Below, piece after piece: positions 33,890 through 47,377 of a DNA stretch of 64,000 nt. Below the pieces are notes generated by a model, which saw only the letters and a list, made by a program, of their open reading frames with translations, had not been told where the DNA came from and searched no databases. The DNA is from an uncultured Alcanivorax sp. (GTDB taxonomy: Bacteria; Pseudomonadota; Gammaproteobacteria; Pseudomonadales; Alcanivoracaceae). The stretch spans positions 248,001-312,000 of the forward strand of contig NZ_CAMYIV010000002.1 in the NCBI RefSeq assembly GCF_947258575.1, in the 5' to 3' direction. Made by a program: the position numbers and the translations under genes. Positions within the stretch are counted from its first letter, which is position 1; every line of letters starts with the position of its first letter.

Positions 33890-34486
33890 ATGAATAACAA
33901 CAAGCGTGCGCCGCTGCCCGGCTTTCTGGCCGGTCTGGAGCCGTTGAGTCGTCGCAGTTTTTTGCGCAGCTCCGTGCTTGCCAGCGCCGCAGTTACCTCC
34001 GGTTGTGCCAGTATGTTCGGGCGACGAAATGCCCCGCAAGCGCTGCAATATCATAGCCTCAATCAGGACGAAGCCCGGGTTATCACCCGCCTGACCGAGG
34101 TCATGCTACCCACCGCCAGTTATGGGCTGCCATCCAGTACCGAGGTCGTGCCGACGGTCAAGAATGTGGACGCCATGACCCAGCGTATGCCCCAGCAGAC
34201 CCGCGAGTTGCTCGGCCTGGGCATCTGGGTGTTCAACAACCGCCCCATGGTCAGCTTCAAGTTCAGCCAGTTCACCTCCCTCTCCGATGACAAGGCGCTC
34301 GATTACGTTAACGCCATGCAGGAAGGGTCGTTCTTCGAGCGTGGCCTGATGACTACGCTGAAAGCGCTGGTGGCATTGAACTACTGGCGTGATGAGCGCA
34401 CCTGGCCGGGGCTGGAATACCATGGCCCGGTGACCGAAGTGTGGGGCGTGCGGCGTCTGGGTAATGCACCGTTGCCGCGAGCCTGA
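33890..34486 (+). CDS. Tat-lipoprotein-like gluconate 2-dehydrogenase subunit 3-like protein (pair 2)
   Basis: It has 198 residues. The signal carries both a twin-arginine motif, LSRRSFLRSS, and a lipobox-like SGCAS (Cys near residue 39), so it may be a Tat-exported lipoprotein. The mature part resembles the protein at 31392-32021: TYPE-like LTEVMLPTASYGLPSS, YWRDERTWPGLEYHGPV, and the shared ending RRLGNAPLP. It lies eleven bases before its GMC partner and may anchor it to the membrane. Confidence 0.8.
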   Translation: MNNNKRAPLPGFLAGLEPLSRRSFLRSSVLASAAVTSGCASMFGRRNAPQALQYHSLNQDEARVITRLTEVMLPTASYGLPSSTEVVPTVKNVDAMTQRMPQQTRELLGLGIWVFNNRPMVSFKFSQFTSLSDDKALDYVNAMQEGSFFERGLMTTLKALVALNYWRDERTWPGLEYHGPVTEVWGVRRLGNAPLPRA

Positions 34487-34497
34487 CAGGGGGAATT

Positions 34498-36096
34498 ATG
34501 GCTTTTGTACGTGTCGCCCGTGACGGTGTCCCCGTCACCGAGGCAAAGGATGTGGCCCTGGATGCAAACCTGGGCAAACGCTTCACCCTGAAAACCGATG
34601 TGGTGGTGGTGGGCTCTGGTGCTGCCGGTTCCATTGTGGCCTATGAAATGGCCAAAGCCGGTCGCGATGTACTGGTGCTGGAATCCGGCCGCTATTACCC
34701 CAGCTCCCAGTTTACCGAACACCTGGGCGATACCATGACCAAGATCTATCAGGATCAGGTCGGCCAGGTAAATACCACGGCGGACATCATTTTCGTCCAG
34801 GGCGCCTGTGTTGGGGGTTCCACGGTGATCGGTGCCTGCGTGATGGAAGAGCCCGGCGATGCAGTGCTGGATGGCTGGGCGAGCCGGTATGGCCTGGAGA
34901 ATCTGTCGGCGGAAAAATTCCGGCCTTACCTGGATGGTGTGGCCGACCAGTTGCAGATCCATATCAACGAGGCTCATGAAATCAATGCCTGTGCCCACAA
35001 GGTGATCCAGGGCTGCGAGAAAATGGAGTTTTCCTGGAAACCGGCCCAGCGCAACGTGAAGCAGTGCGCGCTGACCGGGCACTGCCTGGCCGGTTGTCCT
35101 TCTGACCGGAAAATGAGCTCTCTGGTGACGCATTTGCCCTGGGCTGCCGCCCATGGCGCACGAATTTTCTCGGATACCGAAGTGGTACGCGTGCTTACCC
35201 GTGATGGTCGTGCCCGTGGCGTCGAAGCGCGAATTACCGACCCGGACAGCGGTGCCCACGTGGCCGACATGCAGGTGGATGCGGACATGGTGGTACTGGC
35301 CGCTGGCGCTATCCATACACCGCTGATCATGCAGCGCAGTCAGGTGGAAGATCGCAGTGGCCAACTGGGTCGCAACCTGTCCATTCAGCCCTTCACCCAG
35401 GTACTGGGAAAGTTCAAGGAGCCTCTTTATGGCTTCCGCGGTGCGTTGGTCGGGGTGCAGGTGGATGAATTCACCCGCACCGATGGCTATACCATCTTCT
35501 CGGGGTTGGCAGAGCCGGAATCCCTGCTGGCTCAGGGTGACATGAAGGCGGGCAAGGCCCATATCGACTTCATGAAGAACTACAAGTACTACGCCGGTGT
35601 GAATGCGTTCAGCACGGACCAGGGCAGGGGATACGTGGAATGGTCCGGGGACGCCTATAGCGGCGACAAGACCATTCACTGGAACCCGAACCGGGAAGAA
35701 TTCAACAATATGAAGGCGTCTGCTGCTCTGGCGGCGCGTATCTTCTTCTCCGGCGGCGCGGAAAAGGTCTACATGCCTACCTTCCAGAACCTGGAAGTGG
35801 ATTCGGTCTTTGCGCTGGATGAAACCCTGGACAAGGTGGATTTCGGCCTGAAAGGCATGTACACCTTCCGGGCCAACAGCTTCAGCCCCCATGGTACCTG
35901 CCGGATGGGGTCTGACCCCTACGAGGCGGTGGTGGCGCCCACGGGGCAGGTGTATGGCACAGCAGGCCTGTTCGTGGCTGATGCCAGCCTGATCCCCGAA
36001 CCCATGACGGCGCCGGTACAGTGGACCGTGCAGGCGCTGGCTCAGTATGTGAGCGACAAGATCAACGAGAACGCGCACAGCTACTTTATCAGTTAA
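34498..36096 (+). CDS. GMC-family FAD oxidoreductase with Cys motif, altered catalytic site (pair 2)
   Basis: It has 532 residues and is a paralogue of the flavoprotein at 32018-33556. The FAD loop is VVVVGSGAAGSIVAYEMAKAG (split, from about residue 35), with GACVGGSTVIGACV. The Cys cluster QCALTGHCLAGC (C190, C196, C200) is kept. At the C-terminus the canonical His of HxxGTC is Ser463 (SPHGTCRMG) and the Asn of NPQIT aligns with Pro506 (APVQWT), so the usual catalytic pair is absent. It has no signal of its own. Activity and substrate are uncertain. Confidence 0.83.
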   Translation: MAFVRVARDGVPVTEAKDVALDANLGKRFTLKTDVVVVGSGAAGSIVAYEMAKAGRDVLVLESGRYYPSSQFTEHLGDTMTKIYQDQVGQVNTTADIIFVQGACVGGSTVIGACVMEEPGDAVLDGWASRYGLENLSAEKFRPYLDGVADQLQIHINEAHEINACAHKVIQGCEKMEFSWKPAQRNVKQCALTGHCLAGCPSDRKMSSLVTHLPWAAAHGARIFSDTEVVRVLTRDGRARGVEARITDPDSGAHVADMQVDADMVVLAAGAIHTPLIMQRSQVEDRSGQLGRNLSIQPFTQVLGKFKEPLYGFRGALVGVQVDEFTRTDGYTIFSGLAEPESLLAQGDMKAGKAHIDFMKNYKYYAGVNAFSTDQGRGYVEWSGDAYSGDKTIHWNPNREEFNNMKASAALAARIFFSGGAEKVYMPTFQNLEVDSVFALDETLDKVDFGLKGMYTFRANSFSPHGTCRMGSDPYEAVVAPTGQVYGTAGLFVADASLIPEPMTAPVQWTVQALAQYVSDKINENAHSYFIS

Positions 36097-37933: not shown

Positions 37934-37983
37934 CAGACAGATTCGTTTTACCTTTAAGGTCTCTCTAATGGGCAGGGGATAAA

Positions 37984-38064
37984 GTAGGGTGCACTGAGCC
38001 TGAGGCGAACTGCACCATTAAACGCCGGATCGGTGCAGTTCGCCTTAGGCTCAGTGCACCCTAC
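37984..38064. repeat. 81-bp palindromic element, GTAGGGTGCACTGAG family (copy 2)
   Basis: The left arm (37984-38015) and right arm (38033-38064) are 32-bp inverted repeats differing at about one position, around a 17-base loop CATTAAACGCCGGATCG. The loop is the reverse complement of the loop at 53084-53100 with two differences. It is therefore a discrete element inserted in opposite orientation at the two places. Confidence 0.85.
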
Positions 38065-38070
38065 GGATAC

Positions 38071-38103
38071 AAAAAAGCCCGGCCTTTTGAGCCGGGCTTT
38101 TTT
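38071..38103. terminator. Bidirectional intrinsic terminator
   Basis: AAAAAAGCCCGGC and GCCGGGCTTTTTT form a perfect 13-bp stem around a seven-base loop, with A and T tracts on either side. It serves both the plus-strand thioesterase gene and the minus-strand motor operon. Confidence 0.92.
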
Positions 38104-38120: not shown

Positions 38121-39086
38121 TCAGTTGGGGAAGAAGTTCAACTTGTAGTCTCCCTTCCAGGTTTCCACATTCATGGCACCAAAGTTCATGCCCTTGGCAA
38201 TCAGCATGATGCGCCGTTCCAGTTGGCTGTCGCCCAGCTGGCTGGATTTCACTTTCACATCCTGCACATCGCCATTGGGAGCAATCACCAGGTAAAGCAC
38301 CACAGTGCCTTGCAGGGCCGGGTTGCTGCGCAGCGCCCGCTGGTACTGGCTATTGAACTTGCCAGCGTAGCGATCGAATACGCGCCGCAGCTGCTCCTGG
38401 GTACGACGGCTCTTGCCATCGCTGCCCTTGCGACTGGTGCTGGCAGCCTGGCCGGATTCGGCAATCTTGCTGTCCACCTTGCCGGCGCCAACAGTGCCAG
38501 CGGACAGGGTGCCACCGCCGCCACCGCCGCTGGAGGCCCTGGCAGTTGCCACACCGCCGGAGCCGGTTCCGGCACGCTTGCCGATCAGATCTCGCTCGGC
38601 CTTGGCTGCGCTATCGCCGCCGGTACGAAGGTTGTCGCCGGAATTCACCAATGGGCCGATATCATCCAGACCCGCCAGGGAATCGCCAAGATCTTCTTCC
38701 AGTCGAGCCTGGGCTTTTTCCCGGGCCTGTTCCCGCTGTGGTTCGACGGGGTCGGGCTTCGGTTGCGGTTTGGGCTCCGGTTTGGGTTCTTCCGGTTCCG
38801 GCTCTTCTTCCTCGGGTTCAGGCTCAGGCTCCGGTTCGGGCTCCGGCGGCGGCGGTTCTTTTTGCTTCTCAAGGACCAGCTGCGCCAGACGTTCCGGGAT
38901 TTCCTGTTGTTCACGCGGGTCCGGTTTCTCGATGGTGACCGATTCCACCACAATCATCAGCAGCAATGACAGAATCAGCAGAATGATAATGATGCCGTAA
39001 AGGCGCCGGTCTTCCCCCTCTTGTTTGTCCCAGGGCAGGGAACCATCGATGAGTATGCGCAGTTTGTTGTTATTGTTCTGCGTCAT
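38121..39086 (-). CDS. TonB-like energy transducer with AgmX/PglI-type C-terminal domain
   Basis: It has 321 residues: a short cytosolic N-terminus, one membrane helix (about 30-49), a Pro/Glu then Pro/Lys-rich linker (about 78-118), a Gly/Ser-rich stretch (about 170-215) and a C-terminal globular domain (about 230-321) with ALQGTVVLYLVIAPNGDV. This is the build of TonB and of the AgmX/GltJ and PglI/GltG proteins of Myxococcus. It probably passes motor movement from the ExbB/ExbD complex to a periplasmic or outer-membrane partner. Last gene of the nine-gene run, overlapping the upstream exbD-like gene by four bases. Confidence 0.85.
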   Translation of the reverse strand: MTQNNNNKLRILIDGSLPWDKQEGEDRRLYGIIIILLILSLLLMIVVESVTIEKPDPREQQEIPERLAQLVLEKQKEPPPPEPEPEPEPEPEEEEPEPEEPKPEPKPQPKPDPVEPQREQAREKAQARLEEDLGDSLAGLDDIGPLVNSGDNLRTGGDSAAKAERDLIGKRAGTGSGGVATARASSGGGGGGTLSAGTVGAGKVDSKIAESGQAASTSRKGSDGKSRRTQEQLRRVFDRYAGKFNSQYQRALRSNPALQGTVVLYLVIAPNGDVQDVKVKSSQLGDSQLERRIMLIAKGMNFGAMNVETWKGDYKLNFFPN

Positions 39087-39583
39087 TCAGACTCCTCCTC
39101 TGCCACTTTCAGGACAGCAAAGGCGACCTTGGTGTAGGGCGTCTCCATGCAACTGCGCATCAGTTTCTTGATGACGGCATAGGGCACATCCCGGTCGGCC
39201 TGAATCATCACTTCCCGTTCGTCTTCCGGGTTTATCGCAATAGCGCGGGAAGCCCGGAATTTCAGCTCTTCCACCAGGGCATCGACGGTACGTTCTTCTT
39301 GCACTTTAACCGCTTGGGTATCGGCAATTTTACGGCCATCGATAATCACATTAGTGGCACTGACCTGGATGATCAGAACATCGTTGGGCAGTTCCTGTGC
39401 GGTAGATTCCGGTAGCTGAATATCCTGATCTTCCGGTAATTTGGCAGCGTTGTTGTTATTCACCAGCAGGAAGATCAGCAGGATGGTGAAGATATCCATC
39501 AGTGAAGTCAGGTTCAGGGTGGCAACCATCTTGTGGCGGCCATGGTGACGGGCCATACGGCGGGCGCGGGCGGATTTCTTCAC
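39083..39583 (-). CDS. ExbD/TolR-type motor protein with intact Asp
   Basis: It has 166 residues: a basic N-terminus, one membrane helix (about 28-42) and a periplasmic ExbD/TolR domain. The proton-path Asp is present as Asp30 in LNLTSLMDIFTILL. The domain includes VIIDGRKI and EVMIQADRDVPYAVIKKLM. It should form the rotating or stator dimer inside the ExbB-type pentamer. It overlaps both neighbours by four bases. Confidence 0.9.
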   Translation of the reverse strand: MKKSARARRMARHHGRHKMVATLNLTSLMDIFTILLIFLLVNNNNAAKLPEDQDIQLPESTAQELPNDVLIIQVSATNVIIDGRKIADTQAVKVQEERTVDALVEELKFRASRAIAINPEDEREVMIQADRDVPYAVIKKLMRSCMETPYTKVAFAVLKVAEEESE

Positions 39584-40110
39584 GCGTCACCTCCGTTACT
39601 GCCAGTCTGATCCTGTGGCGCTGAACCGATGCTGATACTCGGGAACAGCTCTTTCTTGATGGTCTGGCCATTGACCTGCGTGTTGTACAGGCGCACGGCA
39701 TCCATGGTGTGGATCATCACCTCATAGGGGGTGTCATCCTCACAGAGCAGGGTTATGGCGGTTTCCTCGGGAAACTTTTCTTTCAGTGTCACCAGATAAT
39801 CATGCAGGGCGGCACTGTCGTGATCCTCGCCCTGATTATCGACAATTTTCAGGACGGCACTGGTGTTACGGTCCACCACTTCATAGCGGTTACCGTAAAT
39901 CAGCACTTCCAGCACCAGCTTGTCTTTTTCGTCGTCTTCCGAAGGTGGACTGCTTTCATTCACCGCCGGCAGGTTCAACTGCAGGATGGAGACCTGCGCG
40001 AAGACCGCGTTGATGAGCAGAAAGGGAATCAGCACTACCATCAGATTCAGAAAGGCAGTGATGTTCAGTTCCACATCGGTGTCGCGCGAACGTCGTCTGC
40101 GAAATCGCAT
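39580..40110 (-). CDS. ExbD/TolR-type motor protein with Asn in place of the proton-carrying Asp
   Basis: It has 176 residues: an Arg-rich N-terminus (RFRRRRSRDTD), one membrane helix and a periplasmic domain ending in a Gly/Asn-rich tail. The segment LNITAFLNLMVVLIPFLL aligns with LNLTSLMDIFTILLIFLL of the next gene, placing Asn22 (codon AAT) where ExbD/TolR proteins have Asp. No other acidic residue is in the helix. It may pair with the Asp-bearing protein in a heterodimer. Confidence 0.87.
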   Translation of the reverse strand: MRFRRRRSRDTDVELNITAFLNLMVVLIPFLLINAVFAQVSILQLNLPAVNESSPPSEDDEKDKLVLEVLIYGNRYEVVDRNTSAVLKIVDNQGEDHDSAALHDYLVTLKEKFPEETAITLLCEDDTPYEVMIHTMDAVRLYNTQVNGQTIKKELFPSISIGSAPQDQTGSNGGDA

Positions 40111-40153
40111 ACCAGATCCTTACACCAGATTGGCGAAAACAAGAAAGTACGGC

Positions 40154-40843
40154 TTACTGGCCGTCGTTCTTGCGCTCTTGCTGGGCAGAAACCTGGCGGA
40201 AGACGTTAACGAATTTCACCGAGGCCATTTCCATGCTATCCACCAGTTTGCCGGCCATGGCGTTGATAAAGGCGAAGGCCAGCAGCATGGGGATGGCGGC
40301 AATCAGGCCGAAGGCGGTGGTGTTCATGGCAACGGAAATGGAGGCGGAAAGCAGGTCGGCTTTCTGGGCCGGGTCAGCACTGGCCACCGCGGTAAAGGCG
40401 CTGATCAGACCGAGAATGGTACCCAGCAGGCCGAGCAGGGTGGCGATGTTGGCAAAGGTGCCGATGTAGGGGGTGCGGGCTTCCAGGCGTGGGATGATTT
40501 CCATCAGGCCTTCTTCCATGGCCAGCTCGATATCGTCATGACGCTTGGCAGTCTTGGCGCGCTCCAGGCCGTAGCCGATGACTTTGGCCATGCCTGTATT
40601 GCTGTTGCTGACCACATCCAGCGCCTGGCGAAATTGGCCCTTGGCGATCAAAGGATAGACGTCTTTCCAGGTTTTCTGGTTCTTTGCCTTGGTGGCCTGG
40701 AGGTAAATGATTCGTTCCAGGGACAGGGCAAGGCCCAGGGCCAGGACGACAAGAATGGGGTACATGAAGAAACCGCCATCCTGAATAAAGGTAATGGCGG
40801 TCTCGACAACCCCAGAGTTCTGGGCGGCGGTGGTGGTTGGCAT
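40154..40843 (-). CDS. MotA/TolQ/ExbB-type proton channel protein
   Basis: It has 229 residues from an ATG preceded by AGGAGA. Three membrane helices are predicted at about 25-43, 125-150 and 168-190, with the family block YIGTFANIATLLGLLGTILG and, in the third helix, SISVAMNTTAFGLIAAIP. It forms the proton-driven pentameric stator with the two ExbD-type proteins encoded 43 bp downstream. The gene order matches AglR-AglQ-AglS of Myxococcus. Confidence 0.92.
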   Translation of the reverse strand: MPTTTAAQNSGVVETAITFIQDGGFFMYPILVVLALGLALSLERIIYLQATKAKNQKTWKDVYPLIAKGQFRQALDVVSNSNTGMAKVIGYGLERAKTAKRHDDIELAMEEGLMEIIPRLEARTPYIGTFANIATLLGLLGTILGLISAFTAVASADPAQKADLLSASISVAMNTTAFGLIAAIPMLLAFAFINAMAGKLVDSMEMASVKFVNVFRQVSAQQERKNDGQ

Positions 40844-40983
40844 GGACTTCTCCTGCGGTATTCCTGTTAGTGTTATTGTTTCGCGTGCAGCAATGCCGTG
40901 GTGGTGGCTGCTACACCTTCCCCAAAGCGCCAATTTTTATCAGAAAAAAGGCGTGGGCGCATCTAGTGATATCGGTTGATGTG

Positions 40984-41271
40984 CTATTTCAGGAACAGAT
41001 CATCATTATCCGGCTCCTGATTAAGGAGCTGGTGATACTCGATTTCCCGCATCAACACCTCCTGGTCCAGGGGCTCAAGTACCCGGTTTAGCAGGGAAGA
41101 GGTGGGATCTTTTTTCTCCAGCTTTACCTCCCGGTCCTTCCAGGGCACCACGTTGAGCACCGTGGGGGCTTCCTGGGTGCCGATCACATTGGTTGACGCT
41201 TCCTGGCCATCGCCTTCAGCGTGGCTGACTGTGGCGCACATGAGGGCGGTGATCACGAGTAAAGGGCGCAT
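40984..41271 (-). CDS. Small secreted protein in motor operon, unknown
   Basis: It has 95 residues with a signal peptide (MRPLLVITALMCATVSHA) and a mature part of about 77 highly charged residues: PWKDREVKLEKKDPTSSLLN and a tail rich in Asp/Glu. No family was recognised. Its ATG sits at the stop codon of the TPR lipoprotein gene, so it is a genuine member of the operon. It is probably periplasmic. Confidence 0.7.
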   Translation of the reverse strand: MRPLLVITALMCATVSHAEGDGQEASTNVIGTQEAPTVLNVVPWKDREVKLEKKDPTSSLLNRVLEPLDQEVLMREIEYHQLLNQEPDNDDLFLK

Positions 41272-42023
41272 CAGTTCAACTCTCCATTCTTGTTACCGGC
41301 ATCCTGGTCCGCCACTGGCTGGCTGGGAGCGTCCGGCGCTCTGCGCTGCAGGTCTACAATCCAGTTGGACACGTTCTCATCCGGCAATTTCTGCAGGTTC
41401 TGGTAGGCCTGAAAATGTTCCAGTGCCAGTTGCAGATCCTGCAGGTAAAGCTCGGCGAGAACCGCCAGGTTGAAATGAGCGCGAGCATATTTCGGGTCCA
41501 GAACCAGAGCCCGCTCATAATGGATACGGGCGTCATCGAACTGGCCCTGCTCACGTAATGCCAAGCCCAGCCCATTGTGGGCATAGGGATTGGCATCATT
41601 GATGGCAAGGGATTGTTCGAAAGCCTGTTGTGCCTTGGCGTAGTCTTCCTGTTCCATGTAGATCAGACCCACATTGAGCTGAGGGCCGGACAGTTGCGGG
41701 AAACGCTCACCCAGGGAGCGGAACATCACCAGGGCTTGCTTGTCTTTGCCAGCTATTCGAGCCTGCAATGCACGGGCATATTCCGCCATGGCCTGCTCGG
41801 CGATCTTTTCTACCTTGGGATCATGGGGTACTGGCGGAATATGAATGGCGTCACTGTCGGCGGCAGCGCCACCGTCTTTCTGTTGCTCATATTTGCTGGT
41901 GCCGCCCTCGCCGGAGCCCTCCAGCCCGATGCCGCCTTTGCTGGCGCAGCCTGACAGTGCCAGGACGGCGAGCAGTGCGGTGGCCGCGCCCAGGCGGCCA
42001 CGATCAGTAAATGATGTCCACAT
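41271..42023 (-). CDS. TPR lipoprotein
   Basis: It has 250 residues. The lipobox is LALSGCAS with Cys26. A Gly-rich stretch follows, then about three to four tetratricopeptide repeats over residues 75-205 (for example NPYAHNGLGLALREQGQFDD and YARAHFNLAVLAELYLQDL). TPRs are scaffolds for protein contacts. It is likely lipid-anchored in the outer membrane or inner membrane on the periplasmic side. Its start overlaps the end of the preceding large TPR gene by 20 bp. Confidence 0.82.
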   Translation of the reverse strand: MWTSFTDRGRLGAATALLAVLALSGCASKGGIGLEGSGEGGTSKYEQQKDGGAAADSDAIHIPPVPHDPKVEKIAEQAMAEYARALQARIAGKDKQALVMFRSLGERFPQLSGPQLNVGLIYMEQEDYAKAQQAFEQSLAINDANPYAHNGLGLALREQGQFDDARIHYERALVLDPKYARAHFNLAVLAELYLQDLQLALEHFQAYQNLQKLPDENVSNWIVDLQRRAPDAPSQPVADQDAGNKNGELN

Positions 42024-44949
42024 AGCTTTCTACCTGTTCAAACTTCGCATAGCGGCCTGGGATCAGTTCTGCCAGAGCGCCAAAGCTTTTCTTTACCCAC
42101 TGGTCATAAATATCGTCGGTGACCAGATTGGTATTGGCGATAAGGATGTCGATAGCCTGGTCCTCGTAGGGGAAGGCCTTGTCTTCCAGCAGCATGGTGT
42201 ACTCTTCGAGCTCCAGTTCATCCAGCCCGTTCGGGCGTTCAGATGCGATCAGGTCGCGGGCCAGTACCCGATACATTTCGCCGATTTTGTAGTTGGCGGC
42301 GGTGGCATATTCCGCGACGCCAATGTCAGCGACTGCCTGGTAATCCGCCAGAGCTTTTTTCATGACGGCGGTCTTGGCGGCCAGGGAGGGTTTCAGCGGC
42401 TGCGTAAGGGTAATGCGTTTGAATTCCGCGAAGTTGGGTTCTGCCAGGGTAAAGCTGGCGTAGGCAGCCAGCCAGGCAACCCGGTCATTGGCTTCACTGC
42501 CGGCTTGGCGGTAGCTGGTCACCAGTTGTTGCAGCCAATGGTTTTCCCGCTCGCTGTTGCCGGTTTTCCGATTCAGCTCTACCAGCCGGAACTGCGCTTC
42601 AGAGCGGAAATCGTAGGGTTGTGGCCATTCCTGTAGATACTGCTGGTAGAGGGCAATGGAGGCCTGGGGCTGTTCGGCCCGGTCCTGCATTTCCGCCGCT
42701 TTCCATAACGCCTGGCGGGAGAGCTCCGGATCGTCGCCTTTGTAATTGGCGGCAATCAACTGTAGCTCGCCGGCTGCGGCGGTGTAGTTGCCCTGTTTCT
42801 CGTAGGCAATGGCCAGCTTGTCGGGGATGGTGTCGGTGAGCGGGTCGTCGGGGTAGCGCTGACGGAAGGCCTCCAGAACCGGGATGGCATCGGCGCCGCG
42901 GCCCTGGTTGATGAACAGGGTGGCGGCATCGAATTCGGCATTCTTGCGAACCGCCGCTTCCGGCACGGCCTGGCCAACACGCAGGAAGGTGGCAGCGGCG
43001 ATATCCAGGTTACCCTGTTCCTGCTGCTGCTCGGCCTGGCGGTAAATGCTGACCGCCAGTTTCTCCCGGTATTGTGCGCGTTGTTTGGCGGACATCTGCA
43101 TATCGAGCAGTTTGCCGTAAGCCATTTCGGCCACTTTGAAACGGCCCAGATCGAATTCACCGTTGGCAATGGTGGCCCAGCCATAGCGCATCAGCTCGGC
43201 GGAAGGGGGCGGTTGTCGATTGACCAGAATGCCTGCGGTTTTCACAGCGCCTTCCACGTCACCCAGCGCCAGTTGGTCCTCGGCGGTGTCATGCAACACA
43301 TTGGGGACTTCCGGGTGTTCCGGGAAGCGTTGTCCGTATTGCTGGGCGCTGGCGATTTTCTTGGTCCGCCAACTGCTTTCCTGTTCCTCGTCCGGGTTGC
43401 TGTCGAGAATCTGCTGGTAGGCTACCAGGGCGTTGAAGGCGGCATCACCGCCTTTTTCATAGCCTTGGTACTGATAGGCCGTACGTTCAAACTCGCTGAT
43501 AGCGGCAGGGAAATCCTCGGCGGCGTAGAGCACTTCCGCATAGCGGTGATTAACCTTGCCCTGGTCTTCGCTCGGAGGAGGGGTGTCCAGGTATTCCTGG
43601 TACCAGCGCGCCGGGTTGCGGTAATCCCCCGGGTTGCCGGATTTCTGGGCCAGCACATGGTGGTATTCGGCCAGGTCGAGAATATGGCCCTTGAGCAGCG
43701 ATACATACTCTTCACGAATATCGGGATGGCGGACCCAGTAATCGCTGTTGATCCCATAATGCTGAATGAATTTTTCCTTGGCCGGCAACACCAGGGTAGG
43801 GAAGCCACCTTTCTGGTAGGCGTCGATCTGCAGACTGGAGAATTCCGGTGCCAGGGTGGAATCCGGGTACACCTGGACAAACATGTCGAAGGCTTCTGCT
43901 GCATCGCGGAAGCGCTCCTGGCTCAGGTAGACCTGGCCCAGGGAGCGATAGATATCCGGTTCGTAATCCCGCTTGCCGTTGCGAGCAAACCATTTTTTCA
44001 CCGACTGTGGACCATCCAGGTTACTGAATGCCAGGCTCACCACGCGCTGGGTGTCGGCGAACAATTTATTTTCCATGCTGGTGTCGTCATTGAGCTCACT
44101 GGCGCCATTCAGGGTGTCCAGCAGGGTAAAGAAGCTGGCCTGGGCCAGCTCGTAGTCGCCCAGTTTGTAATGGCTCCAGCCATGCTTGTAGAGCGCCTGG
44201 CTGTAGAATTCATTATTCGCGCCGCGGTTGATGACGTCCGCGTAGGCTTTTTCTGCGTAATCGTAATCACCGTCCGAGAACAGCATTTCGCCCCGACGGA
44301 ACTGGGATTCCAGTGCCCATTCGCTGTTTGGATACTGCGCTACCAGGGCGTCCAGGCTGGCGCGAGCCTGTTCCAGGTTGCCATCCATGGCGTAGGCCTT
44401 GGATAACAGGTAATAGGCTTCGGCGCGCTGCTCCGGGTCGTTGGTGCTGTTAAGCAATTCCTGATACAGGGCGATGGCGGTGTTGTAATCCACGTCCTTA
44501 TCGGCCAGCGATGGCGCCATGGTGCCGGCCAGATCCAGCAGCGCCAGTTTGCGTTCGGTATCCGGTGTGGTGTTCACCTGCTCCATGGCGTTGTCGTAGA
44601 CGAGTTTGTCCACTTTTTGTTCGAGACGCTCGTTGTCGGCGTCTTCAATACCCATTTCCTGTTCGGTGGCGGAGGACAGGGCCAGATCCGCCATGCGCCG
44701 GAGGGTCTTGGCTCGACGCTCCGGGTCGTCGAACAGCTCAGCGGCCTGCCGGTAGCTGTTCAATGCATCCTGGGTGCTGGCACTTTCCAGTTGCTGTTCT
44801 TCGATGATGATGTCGGTGCTTTCCAGATCCGCCAGGGTTGTCCCCCCGAAACGGGCCTGTTGCTCCAGTGTGCCGTTCTGCGGTGCAGACGCGCAGCCGC
44901 CAAGAGCAATGATTGCGGCTGCCAGCCCATGCAGGCGAAATCGGTTCAC
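42004..44949 (-). CDS. Large TPR lipoprotein of the motor operon
   Basis: It has 981 residues. The lipobox is ALGGCAS with Cys19. Almost all the rest is helical TPR-like repeat, for example EQRAEAYYLLSKAYAMDGNL, ALYKHGWSHYKLGDYELAQ and DYEPDIYRSLGQVYLSQERF. It probably forms a long periplasmic scaffold. Similar large TPR proteins (GltD/AgmU type) belong to the Myxococcus gliding complex, though no orthology is claimed. It overlaps both neighbours, which implies coupled translation. Confidence 0.82.
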   Translation of the reverse strand: MNRFRLHGLAAAIIALGGCASAPQNGTLEQQARFGGTTLADLESTDIIIEEQQLESASTQDALNSYRQAAELFDDPERRAKTLRRMADLALSSATEQEMGIEDADNERLEQKVDKLVYDNAMEQVNTTPDTERKLALLDLAGTMAPSLADKDVDYNTAIALYQELLNSTNDPEQRAEAYYLLSKAYAMDGNLEQARASLDALVAQYPNSEWALESQFRRGEMLFSDGDYDYAEKAYADVINRGANNEFYSQALYKHGWSHYKLGDYELAQASFFTLLDTLNGASELNDDTSMENKLFADTQRVVSLAFSNLDGPQSVKKWFARNGKRDYEPDIYRSLGQVYLSQERFRDAAEAFDMFVQVYPDSTLAPEFSSLQIDAYQKGGFPTLVLPAKEKFIQHYGINSDYWVRHPDIREEYVSLLKGHILDLAEYHHVLAQKSGNPGDYRNPARWYQEYLDTPPPSEDQGKVNHRYAEVLYAAEDFPAAISEFERTAYQYQGYEKGGDAAFNALVAYQQILDSNPDEEQESSWRTKKIASAQQYGQRFPEHPEVPNVLHDTAEDQLALGDVEGAVKTAGILVNRQPPPSAELMRYGWATIANGEFDLGRFKVAEMAYGKLLDMQMSAKQRAQYREKLAVSIYRQAEQQQEQGNLDIAAATFLRVGQAVPEAAVRKNAEFDAATLFINQGRGADAIPVLEAFRQRYPDDPLTDTIPDKLAIAYEKQGNYTAAAGELQLIAANYKGDDPELSRQALWKAAEMQDRAEQPQASIALYQQYLQEWPQPYDFRSEAQFRLVELNRKTGNSERENHWLQQLVTSYRQAGSEANDRVAWLAAYASFTLAEPNFAEFKRITLTQPLKPSLAAKTAVMKKALADYQAVADIGVAEYATAANYKIGEMYRVLARDLIASERPNGLDELELEEYTMLLEDKAFPYEDQAIDILIANTNLVTDDIYDQWVKKSFGALAELIPGRYAKFEQVESYVDIIY

Positions 44950-46862
44950 GATCCTGTCCTCTGTTTGCTGCCGTCGGATGCCGAAGAGTCCTGCAGGCGG
45001 GCAACGGCCAGATGGGCCTCGGCCAACTGGTCTGCCAGTTTCTGCTGGTTGGCCAATAGCAGCGCAAGGGCATCGGCCTGCATGCTCTTTTCCAGAGCCT
45101 CTAGGGTGTCTTCGGTAAGACGCTTTATTGTTTCAATTCGCTGGGTCTGCTCGGCCAGTCTTTGGCCAAGGTCGTCCCGGGTGCGCAGAGTGGCATCACG
45201 GATCTGCTGTTGTACGGCAGCAATTCGTTCGCCCAGAACACTGCTTTCTTCTCGTAATTGGGTAGCAGCTTGCTCCTGTTTTTGCCGTTGTTCTATCGAC
45301 TGGTGAGCAATATCCCACAACAACAGGCCGCGTACTTTGCGTAAACGAAGGGCATTGGCATGGCTTGAGCCGGGCAAAGTGCCGAACTGGCGTGCCATGG
45401 CATCCACTTTCTTCCACATGATGGCCTGTTCGGCGTTGGCCACGTCTTGCGGTTTACTCATGTCGACAAAGTTGGGGATCGCTGCGGAGACCTTGTCACT
45501 GGCCAGGGCCAGCTGTTCCTGTCGGCTCATGTGGCGGGTCATTTCGCCGCGCACATGGGGCAGGTTGCGGCTCAGGCTTTGCTGCTGGATTTGATAGGTT
45601 TCCTGAAGCGCAGGCAGTGACTGCTGCCATTTCTCTACCATGCTCTTGATCTGGTGAATCTGTCGGTAGTGCTCGAAGCGTTGGGCAAAGGCGTTGCTGG
45701 AGAACAGCTTGTAGAGATAAGAGAGTTCATTGCCCTGGGCCAGATCACCACTATTGGCTGGCAGCAGGCCGGCCTGATTACCGTCTTCCGGTAGCAAGGC
45801 TTCCGACCAACCGGGTTTGGCGATGTTGTCGATGGCTTTCTGGATATCTTTCAATGCCTGACGGTATTCCGAGGCGGCATACTGGTAGCCGGCCAGGGCC
45901 TGGGGCAGACCTCCGAGCTCTTCGTAGGCACGGGGGGCCAGCATGAGCGCTTCCTGCACGGAGGGGTGGCTGCTGTTGCGGCGTACCGCTTCCAGCCACA
46001 GGGGCAGGGCGCGTTTTATCTCGCCGGCCCGGTAATTGGCCAGTCCCAGGGCGAGTAAGGCATCTTCGGAGAAGGGACCGTCACTGCGGACTTGGCGCAG
46101 GTCTGCACGGGCGCTTTGCAATTTACCTTCTCTCAATTCGGTCAGGCCGGATGCCAGAGCGGCCCGATCGCGCAGGGCGAGAGCCTGGTCAGAACTGCCA
46201 CCGGCTTCCAGCAGGGATTTGAGCAGGGCTACCCCCTGTTCACGGTGACCGCCGCGAATCAATGCCACGCCCATGTTGTAAGTGGCGTAGCGGCCTTCGT
46301 CCGTGCTCAGGGGAACGGAGTGCAGATAATCCAGGGCGCCGGCAAAATCTTCCTCGGCCATGAAGATATTGGCCAGCATGAGACGTCGGCGGGCGTCGTC
46401 TGCCGGATCCAGGCCTTCCACGTTTTCGCCGTCCAGAATCATGGCGGCTTCCGCCAGATTGCCTTCACGATAGTGCAGAGCGGCCTTGTGCAGCCAGGTC
46501 TGGGCCCGGGTGCGGCTGAGAATGTCCTTTTCCAACAGGCGGTTGAAGATGACCTCTGCCTTGCCTGGCAGGCCATAGGTTACATAGAGATCGCCCAGCA
46601 ACAGCTCCGCGTAGTCGGTGTCCTCATTGAATAGGGCCTGCTGCTGATTGACCAGCAGCGTGTTGATGGCATTGAAGTTGGCATGACGATAGTAGTCGAA
46701 CATGACCTCGCCAAAAGCCAGGTAGCGGTGCTCCTCTTGGCCAAGAGGTATCGGACCTTCGTTGATATCATCGAAGAACTCGACTTTTGCCGCCTGGACG
46801 GGGGACAACAGGGTGGCGAGGCACGCCGCGACCAGCCACCGTTTTCGCCGCACCTGTGTCAT
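44946..46862 (-). CDS. Secreted TPR/coiled-coil protein of the motor operon
   Basis: It has 638 residues from the ATG that overlaps the preceding stop as ATGA; a GTG twelve bases earlier is possible. The signal peptide ends near SPVQA (residue 23). Residues 40-330 carry TPR-like helical pairs (TYGLPGKAEVIFNRLLEKD, DALLALGLANYRAGEIKRAL). A long coiled coil occupies about 520-620, rich in Gln, Glu and Leu. It is periplasmic and probably structural. Confidence 0.8.
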   Translation of the reverse strand: MTQVRRKRWLVAACLATLLSPVQAAKVEFFDDINEGPIPLGQEEHRYLAFGEVMFDYYRHANFNAINTLLVNQQQALFNEDTDYAELLLGDLYVTYGLPGKAEVIFNRLLEKDILSRTRAQTWLHKAALHYREGNLAEAAMILDGENVEGLDPADDARRRLMLANIFMAEEDFAGALDYLHSVPLSTDEGRYATYNMGVALIRGGHREQGVALLKSLLEAGGSSDQALALRDRAALASGLTELREGKLQSARADLRQVRSDGPFSEDALLALGLANYRAGEIKRALPLWLEAVRRNSSHPSVQEALMLAPRAYEELGGLPQALAGYQYAASEYRQALKDIQKAIDNIAKPGWSEALLPEDGNQAGLLPANSGDLAQGNELSYLYKLFSSNAFAQRFEHYRQIHQIKSMVEKWQQSLPALQETYQIQQQSLSRNLPHVRGEMTRHMSRQEQLALASDKVSAAIPNFVDMSKPQDVANAEQAIMWKKVDAMARQFGTLPGSSHANALRLRKVRGLLLWDIAHQSIEQRQKQEQAATQLREESSVLGERIAAVQQQIRDATLRTRDDLGQRLAEQTQRIETIKRLTEDTLEALEKSMQADALALLLANQQKLADQLAEAHLAVARLQDSSASDGSKQRTGS

Positions 46863-47377
46863 TGCTGATTCCACTCACGGAATTCAAACTTGTGTTGCTG
46901 CTTGTTCAGGTCGTCCACCACCTGCATTTCCACCATTTTCTTGCCGGCACCCTTGGTGAAGGTATAGCTGGTGGTTTTCTGGTAATCCTTGCCGAGTGGA
47001 TCATAGCCGGTGATGGTGGCTTCCATGACATGGCGGCCACTGGCCAGGTTACCGGTGTAAAGACGTTGGATGCCGCCCTTGGTGAGGGCCTCGAATTCCT
47101 GGTCACTGTAAAAATGGTAACCCACGTGTTGGCCATCAATGGTCAGATTCACGTCGACCAGGCGGATCGGCGTACCCACATCCACGGAGACAAAGATGCT
47201 GGTTTGTGGGCTGGCATAGAGGAGCTCCTGCTCGAGCAGGGTGAGGTCCCGGTTCAGGTCCAGGGCTTCGCTTTTCAGCTGGCGGATCTGCTCGGACAGA
47301 CCATCGTCATCGGCGGCGCTGGCGACCGTACACAGGCCGATAAGGAAGGCGCCGCACAGGGGCAAGAGTGCTTTCAT
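46859..47377 (-). CDS. Secreted 172-residue protein at head of motor operon, unknown
   Basis: The signal peptide ends near VASA (about residue 21), followed by a short coiled coil (LSEQIRQLKSEALDLNRDL) and a probably beta-rich domain with VSVDVGTPIRLVDVNLTIDG and SGRHVMEATITGYDPLG. It has the look of a small periplasmic immunoglobulin-like binding domain. No family was recognised. It is the first gene of the nine-gene minus-strand run, so the promoter should lie just upstream. Confidence 0.72.
   Translation of the reverse strand: MKALLPLCGAFLIGLCTVASAADDDGLSEQIRQLKSEALDLNRDLTLLEQELLYASPQTSIFVSVDVGTPIRLVDVNLTIDGQHVGYHFYSDQEFEALTKGGIQRLYTGNLASGRHVMEATITGYDPLGKDYQKTTSYTFTKGAGKKMVEMQVVDDLNKQQHKFEFREWNQQ

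Follow-up and report, generated by a model that had tools for sequence, protein, structure and literature searches.

The subject of this analysis is a nine-gene operon (g1 to g9) of an Alcanivorax sp., a marine oil degrader, read as nine minus-strand open frames at positions 38121-47377 of a stretch of 64,000 nucleotides (the window). It encodes an Agl/Glt-type core machine, a member of a described kind, and since the core complex was already reported by Luciano et al. 2011 (PMC3169522) the existence of the operon is not new. Three of its features were not found in the literature searched, namely an unlike pair of ExbD-type proteins with aspartate in one and asparagine in the other, a set of redox partners and second copies of the core without a motor. 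Our favoured reading, tentative and falling somewhat short of probable, is that the core is a proton motor whose axle has a single proton site and that drives a redox head in the outer membrane, other heads being served elsewhere.

The operon and its distribution

The genes and the signal at the end of the operon are as follows.

46859..47377, minus strand: g1, 172 amino acids (aa), secreted; recurs in order with g2-g9
44946..46874, minus strand: g2, 642 aa, secreted tetratricopeptide repeat (TPR)/coiled-coil protein; TPR match
42004..44949, minus strand: g3, 981 aa, TPR lipoprotein; TPR match, lipobox by eye
41271..42023, minus strand: g4, 250 aa, TPR lipoprotein; TPR match, lipobox by eye
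40984..41271, minus strand: g5, 95 aa, secreted; conserved G-N-x-E-x-P...PWK stretch
40154..40933, minus strand: g6, 259 aa, ExbB/TolQ/MotA-type motor subunit, counterpart of AglR
39580..40110, minus strand: g7, 176 aa, ExbD-type; Asn (FLNLMVVL) at the proton-carrying position
39083..39583, minus strand: g8, 166 aa, ExbD-type; conserved Asp (SLMDIFTILL)
38121..39086, minus strand: g9, 321 aa, proline-rich transducer with an AgmX/PglI (TonB-like) C-terminal domain
38076-38098, minus strand: terminator-like hairpin 3' of g9; such matches also arise by chance

An earlier note on this DNA had described one ExbB-type and two ExbD-type proteins, a transducer, TPR proteins and small secreted proteins, and the open frames together with the profile scans confirm this gene set. 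They also bear out its single strand with mostly overlapping genes: six junctions overlap by 1-20 bases and two gaps of 50 (g5/g6) and 43 bases (g6/g7) are left. Translation of g6 probably starts at an ATG near 40843, giving ~229 aa and a g5/g6 gap of ~140 bases. By eye, g1, g2 and g5 have signal-peptide-like N-termini and g9 a single transmembrane (TM) stretch; a simple lipobox pattern is present in 141 of the 226 g3 relatives and in 175 of the 212 g4 relatives. In the profile scans g6 matches MotA_ExbB with 90.7 bits (cut-off 22.9), while g7 and g8 reach 47.1 and 68.5 bits with the ExbD model (cut-off 25.4). The NCBIfam domain model NF033768 (AgmX/PglI C-terminal domain) is passed by g9 with 56.7 bits (59.1 in a second scan, cut-off 40) and the CpoB/YbgF TPR model by g3 with 103.3 bits (cut-off 90.1); no Pfam or NCBIfam model matched g1 or g5 at E 0.1. 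Among solved structures g8 retrieved TolR and ExbD only and g6 TolQ and ExbB only, and g9 gave a low-complexity match plus TonB at E 0.06-0.1.

The likeness to Agl/Glt proposed in that note stands in part. It is borne by the AgmX/PglI domain of g9 and by GltE being the best NCBIfam model for g4, and it stops short of the equivalog cut-offs, with 41 of 225 bits for g4 (GltE) and 30.5 of 650 (GltG) and 32.7 of 450 bits (GltJ) for g9. With g6 the TolQ model scores higher (64.7 bits) than the ExbB models (31-33 bits), all of them below cut-off. The Group B core complex of Luciano et al. unites gltC, D, E and G with aglR, Q and S in one region in non-deltaproteobacteria, together with one extra gene that has no homologues in Myxococcales (PMC3169522). 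The operon likewise combines an AglR-like, two ExbD-like and GltC/D/E/G-like proteins in one region; the putative correspondence of g2 to GltC and of g3 to GltD is drawn from their size, their order and their TPRs and not from profiles. That related clusters occur in gammaproteobacteria with an unsettled role had been claimed correctly, as outside Myxococcales the core complex is called 'of unknown function' (PMC3169522), and no later answer was found in the literature searched. Wartel et al. 2013 (PMC3858216) consider the Agl/Glt core a possible basal transport machinery. Gliding is not implied by this kinship.

The assembly of the window is a 13-contig draft of 3.5 Mb with four MotA_ExbB loci. 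Profiles of the nine genes were used to map 230 loci, window included, in three sets: an order set, a named-genome set (the best 80 loci from a g7 pattern containing Asn) and a g3-anchored set (89 loci found via g3). The nine-gene arrangement is conserved far beyond chance, because all nine genes stand in order in 43/61 order, 51/80 named and 49/89 g3-anchored loci, the incomplete arrangements being partly due to contig ends. Six order, six named and no g3-anchored loci have g1-g2 placed behind g9, and four loci are without g3. A search of the order with the g7 protein hit 91 of 194 genomes at E 1e-4 and 66 at E 1e-8, the latter being counted as core copies in the order sample. Among 398 Pseudomonadota genomes the g3 and g7 profiles match the identical 15, all in the class of the window (gammaproteobacteria), where g3 is present in 88 of 369 genomes. 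The closest relatives among the best 80 named loci are from Alcanivorax/Alcanivoracaceae (L097-L102), with g7 77-93% identical.

An unlike pair of ExbD-type proteins

Proteins of the ExbD/TolR/MotB type carry protons by way of an aspartate in their single TM helix. This aspartate is present in g8; g7 has asparagine there, though it passes the Pfam ExbD model. The g3-anchored loci were not selected on ExbD, and in the 69 with a readable pair (20/89 had none) g8 always has Asp and the g7 residue is Asn 66 times, Ser twice and Asp once. All sets together give 196 distinct pairs, 186 of them Asn/Asp, five Ser/Asp, four Asp/Asp and one unreadable, a count that includes the named set, which was selected for Asn in g7. 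As the pattern behind that set contains Asn, the named loci were not counted for the g7 residue. In the g3 tree the rare Asp/Asp copies (L066, L069, L072, L226) occupy two positions along the leaf order.

For M. xanthus both AglQ and AglS are predicted to have the conserved Asp, and whether they form homo- or heterodimers is an open question (PMC9389320, a 2022 review). An AglQ with the exchange D28N no longer conducts protons, and the machine is paralysed (PMC3858216); a further review calls the proton site of AglQ essential for gliding (PMC9120999). The natural Asn speaks against a working g7 homodimer. Taken with the D28N paralysis it would therefore most simply fit an axle that combines g7 with g8 and has a single proton site. 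Alternatively g8 could form the usual dimer while g7, lacking the Asp in nearly all loci, acts as a separate regulatory or anchoring subunit; but g7 retains its TM helix, passes the ExbD model and directly precedes g8 in motor-bearing copies, so that we consider such a role unlikely.

Putative redox partners of the core

The genes flanking the 230 loci were grouped by single-linkage clustering, with some genomes counted twice, into families of TlpA-like proteins (60 loci), ApbE (46), DUF3570 (39), an outer-membrane barrel (37), SH3 plus barrel (27), a protein of ~530 aa with a twin-arginine translocation (Tat) signal (27) and a LamG protein (16). The fullest order, seen e.g. in L178, L230, L231, L259 and L260, is CxxCH protein, SH3/barrel, barrel, TlpA, DUF4266, DUF3570 and then g1 onward. 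The families were confirmed on example proteins: all four barrel proteins tested pass TIGR04565 'OMP_myx_plus' (cut-off 60) with 162.9, 140, 155.3 and 161.5 bits, and the SH3/barrel proteins score below the cut-off of the same model. The Tat-signal protein (~526 aa) has no Pfam match in L233, L065 and L273. At least one redox-set gene is encoded on the strand of the core, no more than 7 kb away, in 42/89 g3-anchored, 23/60 order and 38/77 named loci. On the opposite strand the g3-anchored loci have DUF3570 twice, TlpA twice, the barrel and SH3 once each and ApbE never.

No redox-set gene adjoins the operon of the window itself. One DUF3570 (E 1e-10) is found in its genome; it lies on contig C12 and the operon on C2. 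On C12 one strand encodes an 835-aa protein, the SH3/barrel, the TIGR04565 barrel, TlpA, DUF4266 (C-terminus GGGCGCN) and DUF3570. The 835-aa protein (L268, 29-2536) has two CxxCH motifs and a hydrazine synthase middle domain (HZS_alpha, PF18582) with 60.6 bits; against the hydrazine synthase alpha equivalog it scores 53.7 of 800 bits, far below cut-off. The divergent genes encode a CxxCH protein that passes PSD2/DUF1585 (27.3 bits against a cut-off of 25.8), a LamG protein bearing two CxxCH motifs, a 526-aa Tat protein and ApbE. Thus the two partner sets that adjoin g1-g9 elsewhere stand together within ~12.5 kb on C12.

Matches of DUF3570 (PF12094) divide into long and short ones, and the short class (starting at or after 90, ending at 370-400 and scoring below 160 bits) follows the core closely. 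Among the 369 class genomes 56 have both, one the short class only, 32 the core only and 280 neither (Fisher 5e-42, relatedness ignored), and by family label 30 of 31 short-class families (48 families in all) have the core. Any DUF3570 whatever gives 73 genomes with core, 22 with DUF3570 only, 15 with core only and 259 with neither; DUF3570 other than the short class is found in 17 genomes with and 21 without core. The order (194 genomes) shows both in 44, the short class only in seven, the core only in 22 and neither in 121 (Fisher 8e-20, relatedness ignored). Within the family of the window four genomes (G000, G160, G109, G136) have core and short DUF3570, with the Tat protein ~9 kb from DUF3570 in the last three and likewise in G000; three genomes of one genus (G043, G080, G182) have neither, and the Tat protein was not found in them.

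Motorless copies and other possible heads

No motor gene was found in 19 of the 89 g3-anchored loci, some of them at contig ends. Fifteen motorless copies were examined. Eight carry redox-set genes (L198, L203, L213, L230, L244, L245, L248 and, close to a contig end, L260) and two the LamG/Tat set (L233, L239); in L250, L253 and L262 only, a g2-g5 cassette lies directly behind TssG and ClpV of a type VI secretion system, and neither set is seen on the same strand in L241 and in L236, which is at a contig end. Another, motor-bearing copy is among the mapped loci in 12 of the 15 genomes. In M. xanthus the motor AglRQS serves both the Glt and the Nfs machine (PMC3858216).

A subgroup of the core (L073, L205, L211, L215, L218 and eight more) has a longer g9 (~450 aa) with, by eye, a coiled-coil-like N-terminal part. 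The adjoining gene encodes a giant protein, up to 2535 aa long in the part retrieved, and both giants that were scanned contain DUF11 and other repeat-type domains. The giant repeat protein is a candidate for an alternative surface head. Other lineages appear to combine the same core with other heads, i.e. the giant repeat protein or, in three loci, the surroundings of the type VI secretion system.

Proposed mechanism and alternative functions

We propose that in the inner membrane a g6 pentamer encloses an axle made of g7 and g8, one copy of each, so that protons would pass via the single Asp of g8 only. If the motor rotates as proposed for other 5:2 motors, this would give five instead of ten power strokes per turn. 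Through the transducer g9, force would cross the periplasm and reach the TPR lipoproteins g3 and g4 at the outer membrane; g1, g2 and g5 are putative periplasmic parts, and g3/g4 would act on the barrels of a head in the outer membrane. In Alcanivorax and many gammaproteobacteria this head would consist of the TIGR04565 barrel, the SH3-linked barrel, DUF3570, DUF4266 (a CXC protein), TlpA (a thioredoxin) and CxxCH (haem-type) proteins, and ApbE may load DUF3570 with flavin. By moving, opening or assembling the head the motor could let electrons or cargo cross the outer membrane. Sequence cannot tell movement of electron carriers, opening of barrels and export of cargo apart. The most comprehensive version, in which an asymmetric-axle motor with one live and one dead proton site mechanically drives a flavin/haem/thiol redox or secretion machine of the outer membrane, built from a common core plus exchangeable heads, the gliding and spore-coat machines of Myxococcus being two others, is possible but rather doubtful.

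A redox head driven by this motor is favoured by the co-occurrence of core and short DUF3570, by the presence of the set in the window's own genome and by the redox-set genes beside eight of 15 motorless copies. Several points weigh against it. The coupling of motor and head is inferred. That operon and redox set lie on separate contigs in the window's genome is taken from a draft of 13 contigs. At the flavin site the Alcanivorax DUF3570 reads SAAS at the aligned position (by eye) and not [S/T]GA[S/T], therefore it may not be flavinylated; in 42 aligned rows (fragments and two full-length proteins among them) the site reads by eye SGAS or TGAS in 9 and SSAS in 18. The short class was defined after the scores had been seen, the Fisher values ignore relatedness, seven short-class genomes of the order sample are without a core match, and the genomes without core behind the contrast within the family of the window are three, all from a single genus. 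Strand preference is less clear in the order set (60 loci), with the barrel eight times on the same and six times on the opposite strand and SH3 once and three times, respectively. Asp occurs in both ExbDs in 4/196 pairs. Finally, the redox head is not universal among core genomes, because 32 of 88 are without short DUF3570 and 29 of these are without the Tat protein as well (3/32 core-only genomes have it vs 1/32 control genomes).

A rival is a generic Tol-like force machine serving envelope integrity or the movement of lipid or polysaccharide, to which the redox genes would be adjoined by a common lifestyle and not as components of a single machine. Such a machine would suit the match of g3 to the CpoB/YbgF model, the variety of neighbour sets (or none recognised) around the core, the 29/88 core genomes without markers of either partner set and the action of the related M. 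xanthus machines on a surface polymer (PMC3858216). It accounts poorly for the presence of the core in 56 of 57 short-DUF3570 genomes, while other DUF3570 splits 17 with and 21 without, and for the same-strand linkage in g3-anchored loci and the redox genes beside motorless copies. We regard it as somewhat unlikely.

An engine of gliding or surface motility like that of Myxococcus would share its motor and core gene set with Agl/Glt, but of its Group A genes (gltA, B, F, H, I, J, K) profile comparison covered GltJ, whose cut-off none of the nine proteins passes, and Luciano et al. deem motility driven by the core alone unlikely (PMC3169522), which makes it a very unlikely function here. Least probable of all is a TonB2/TtpC-type system that powers the uptake of nutrients (iron, alkanes): ExbB/ExbD/TonB-like parts are present and in Alcanivorax dieselolei homologues of TonB-dependent receptors have been implicated in the uptake of alkanes (PMC6304351), but the two unlike ExbDs and the TPR lipoproteins do not fit, g9 reaches 19.3 of 24.6 bits with TonB_C while passing AgmX/PglI, and a canonical ExbD with Asp adjoins another ExbB (L002) in the same genome. 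No TonB-dependent receptor was noticed among the frames at 34-52 kb, where no receptor profile search was made.

Further features of the window

A large inverted repeat with arms of ~35 bases (by eye) is located at 37983-38068, between a thioesterase-like gene and the operon terminator, and is perhaps a repetitive extragenic palindromic (REP)-type element. At 33890-36096 a small Tat-signal protein with sub-threshold similarity to Gluconate_2-dh3 is followed by a GMC oxidoreductase. The Rfam scan of the window gave zero matches at gathering score, and the window contains no tRNA.

Significance

The redox set travelling with the motor in many bacteria is a concrete clue to the role of the motor, and as the partner set is now named in the cultivable genus Alcanivorax the function of the core becomes testable by deletions. 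With the Asp/Asn pair, the question of AglQ/AglS homo- or heterodimers can be put to a clean test by genetics and structure; the pair also suggests that a single proton site in the axle may be enough to run a motor of the 5:2 type. Among the papers listed in searches with motor and redox terms or with Alcanivorax, titles and starts of abstracts showed no link between motor and redox set; subscription papers, preprints and supplementary files lay outside the scope, and the last may contain such neighbours. DUF3570 and DUF4266 were met only in PMC8238504 (subscription papers and preprints again outside the scope), the main text of which has no match for ExbD, AgmX, gliding or TPR. A 2025 paper on periplasmic force transducers (PMC12204202) mentions AglRQS in passing in its excerpts.

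Comparison with known systems

With the core complex of Luciano et al. (PMC3169522) the operon shares an ExbB-like and two ExbD-like proteins, TPR proteins and a TonB-like transducer. It differs in its two small secreted extras, g1 and g5, and in its redox partners, of which the excerpts of that paper make no mention. In position and size, on which the likeness rests, g5 resembles GltF (89 aa) of M. xanthus. Compared with AglQ and AglS of M. xanthus, both predicted to have Asp, g7 is devoid of it.

TolQRA-Pal/CpoB and ExbBD-TonB have in common with the operon the motor family, a proline-rich transducer and a TPR partner. Here, by contrast, two unlike ExbDs and an AgmX/PglI tail are found, and Pal, TolB and a receptor are not among the nine genes.

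The flavin systems of DUF3570, DUF4266, thioredoxin and ApbE (Meheust et al. 2021, PMC8238504) share with the partner set DUF3570, a thioredoxin-like protein, ApbE and a DUF4266 with C-terminal CXC; in Chlorobium luteolum DUF3570 is flavinylated by its ApbE. In contrast with these systems the short DUF3570 class is tied here to a proton motor, and its motif is mostly SSAS and in Alcanivorax SAAS. The Agl-Nfs spore-coat machine of M. xanthus (PMC3858216) resembles the motorless copies in that one proton motor is accompanied by a second, motorless envelope module, whereas the second modules described here often stand behind redox barrels.

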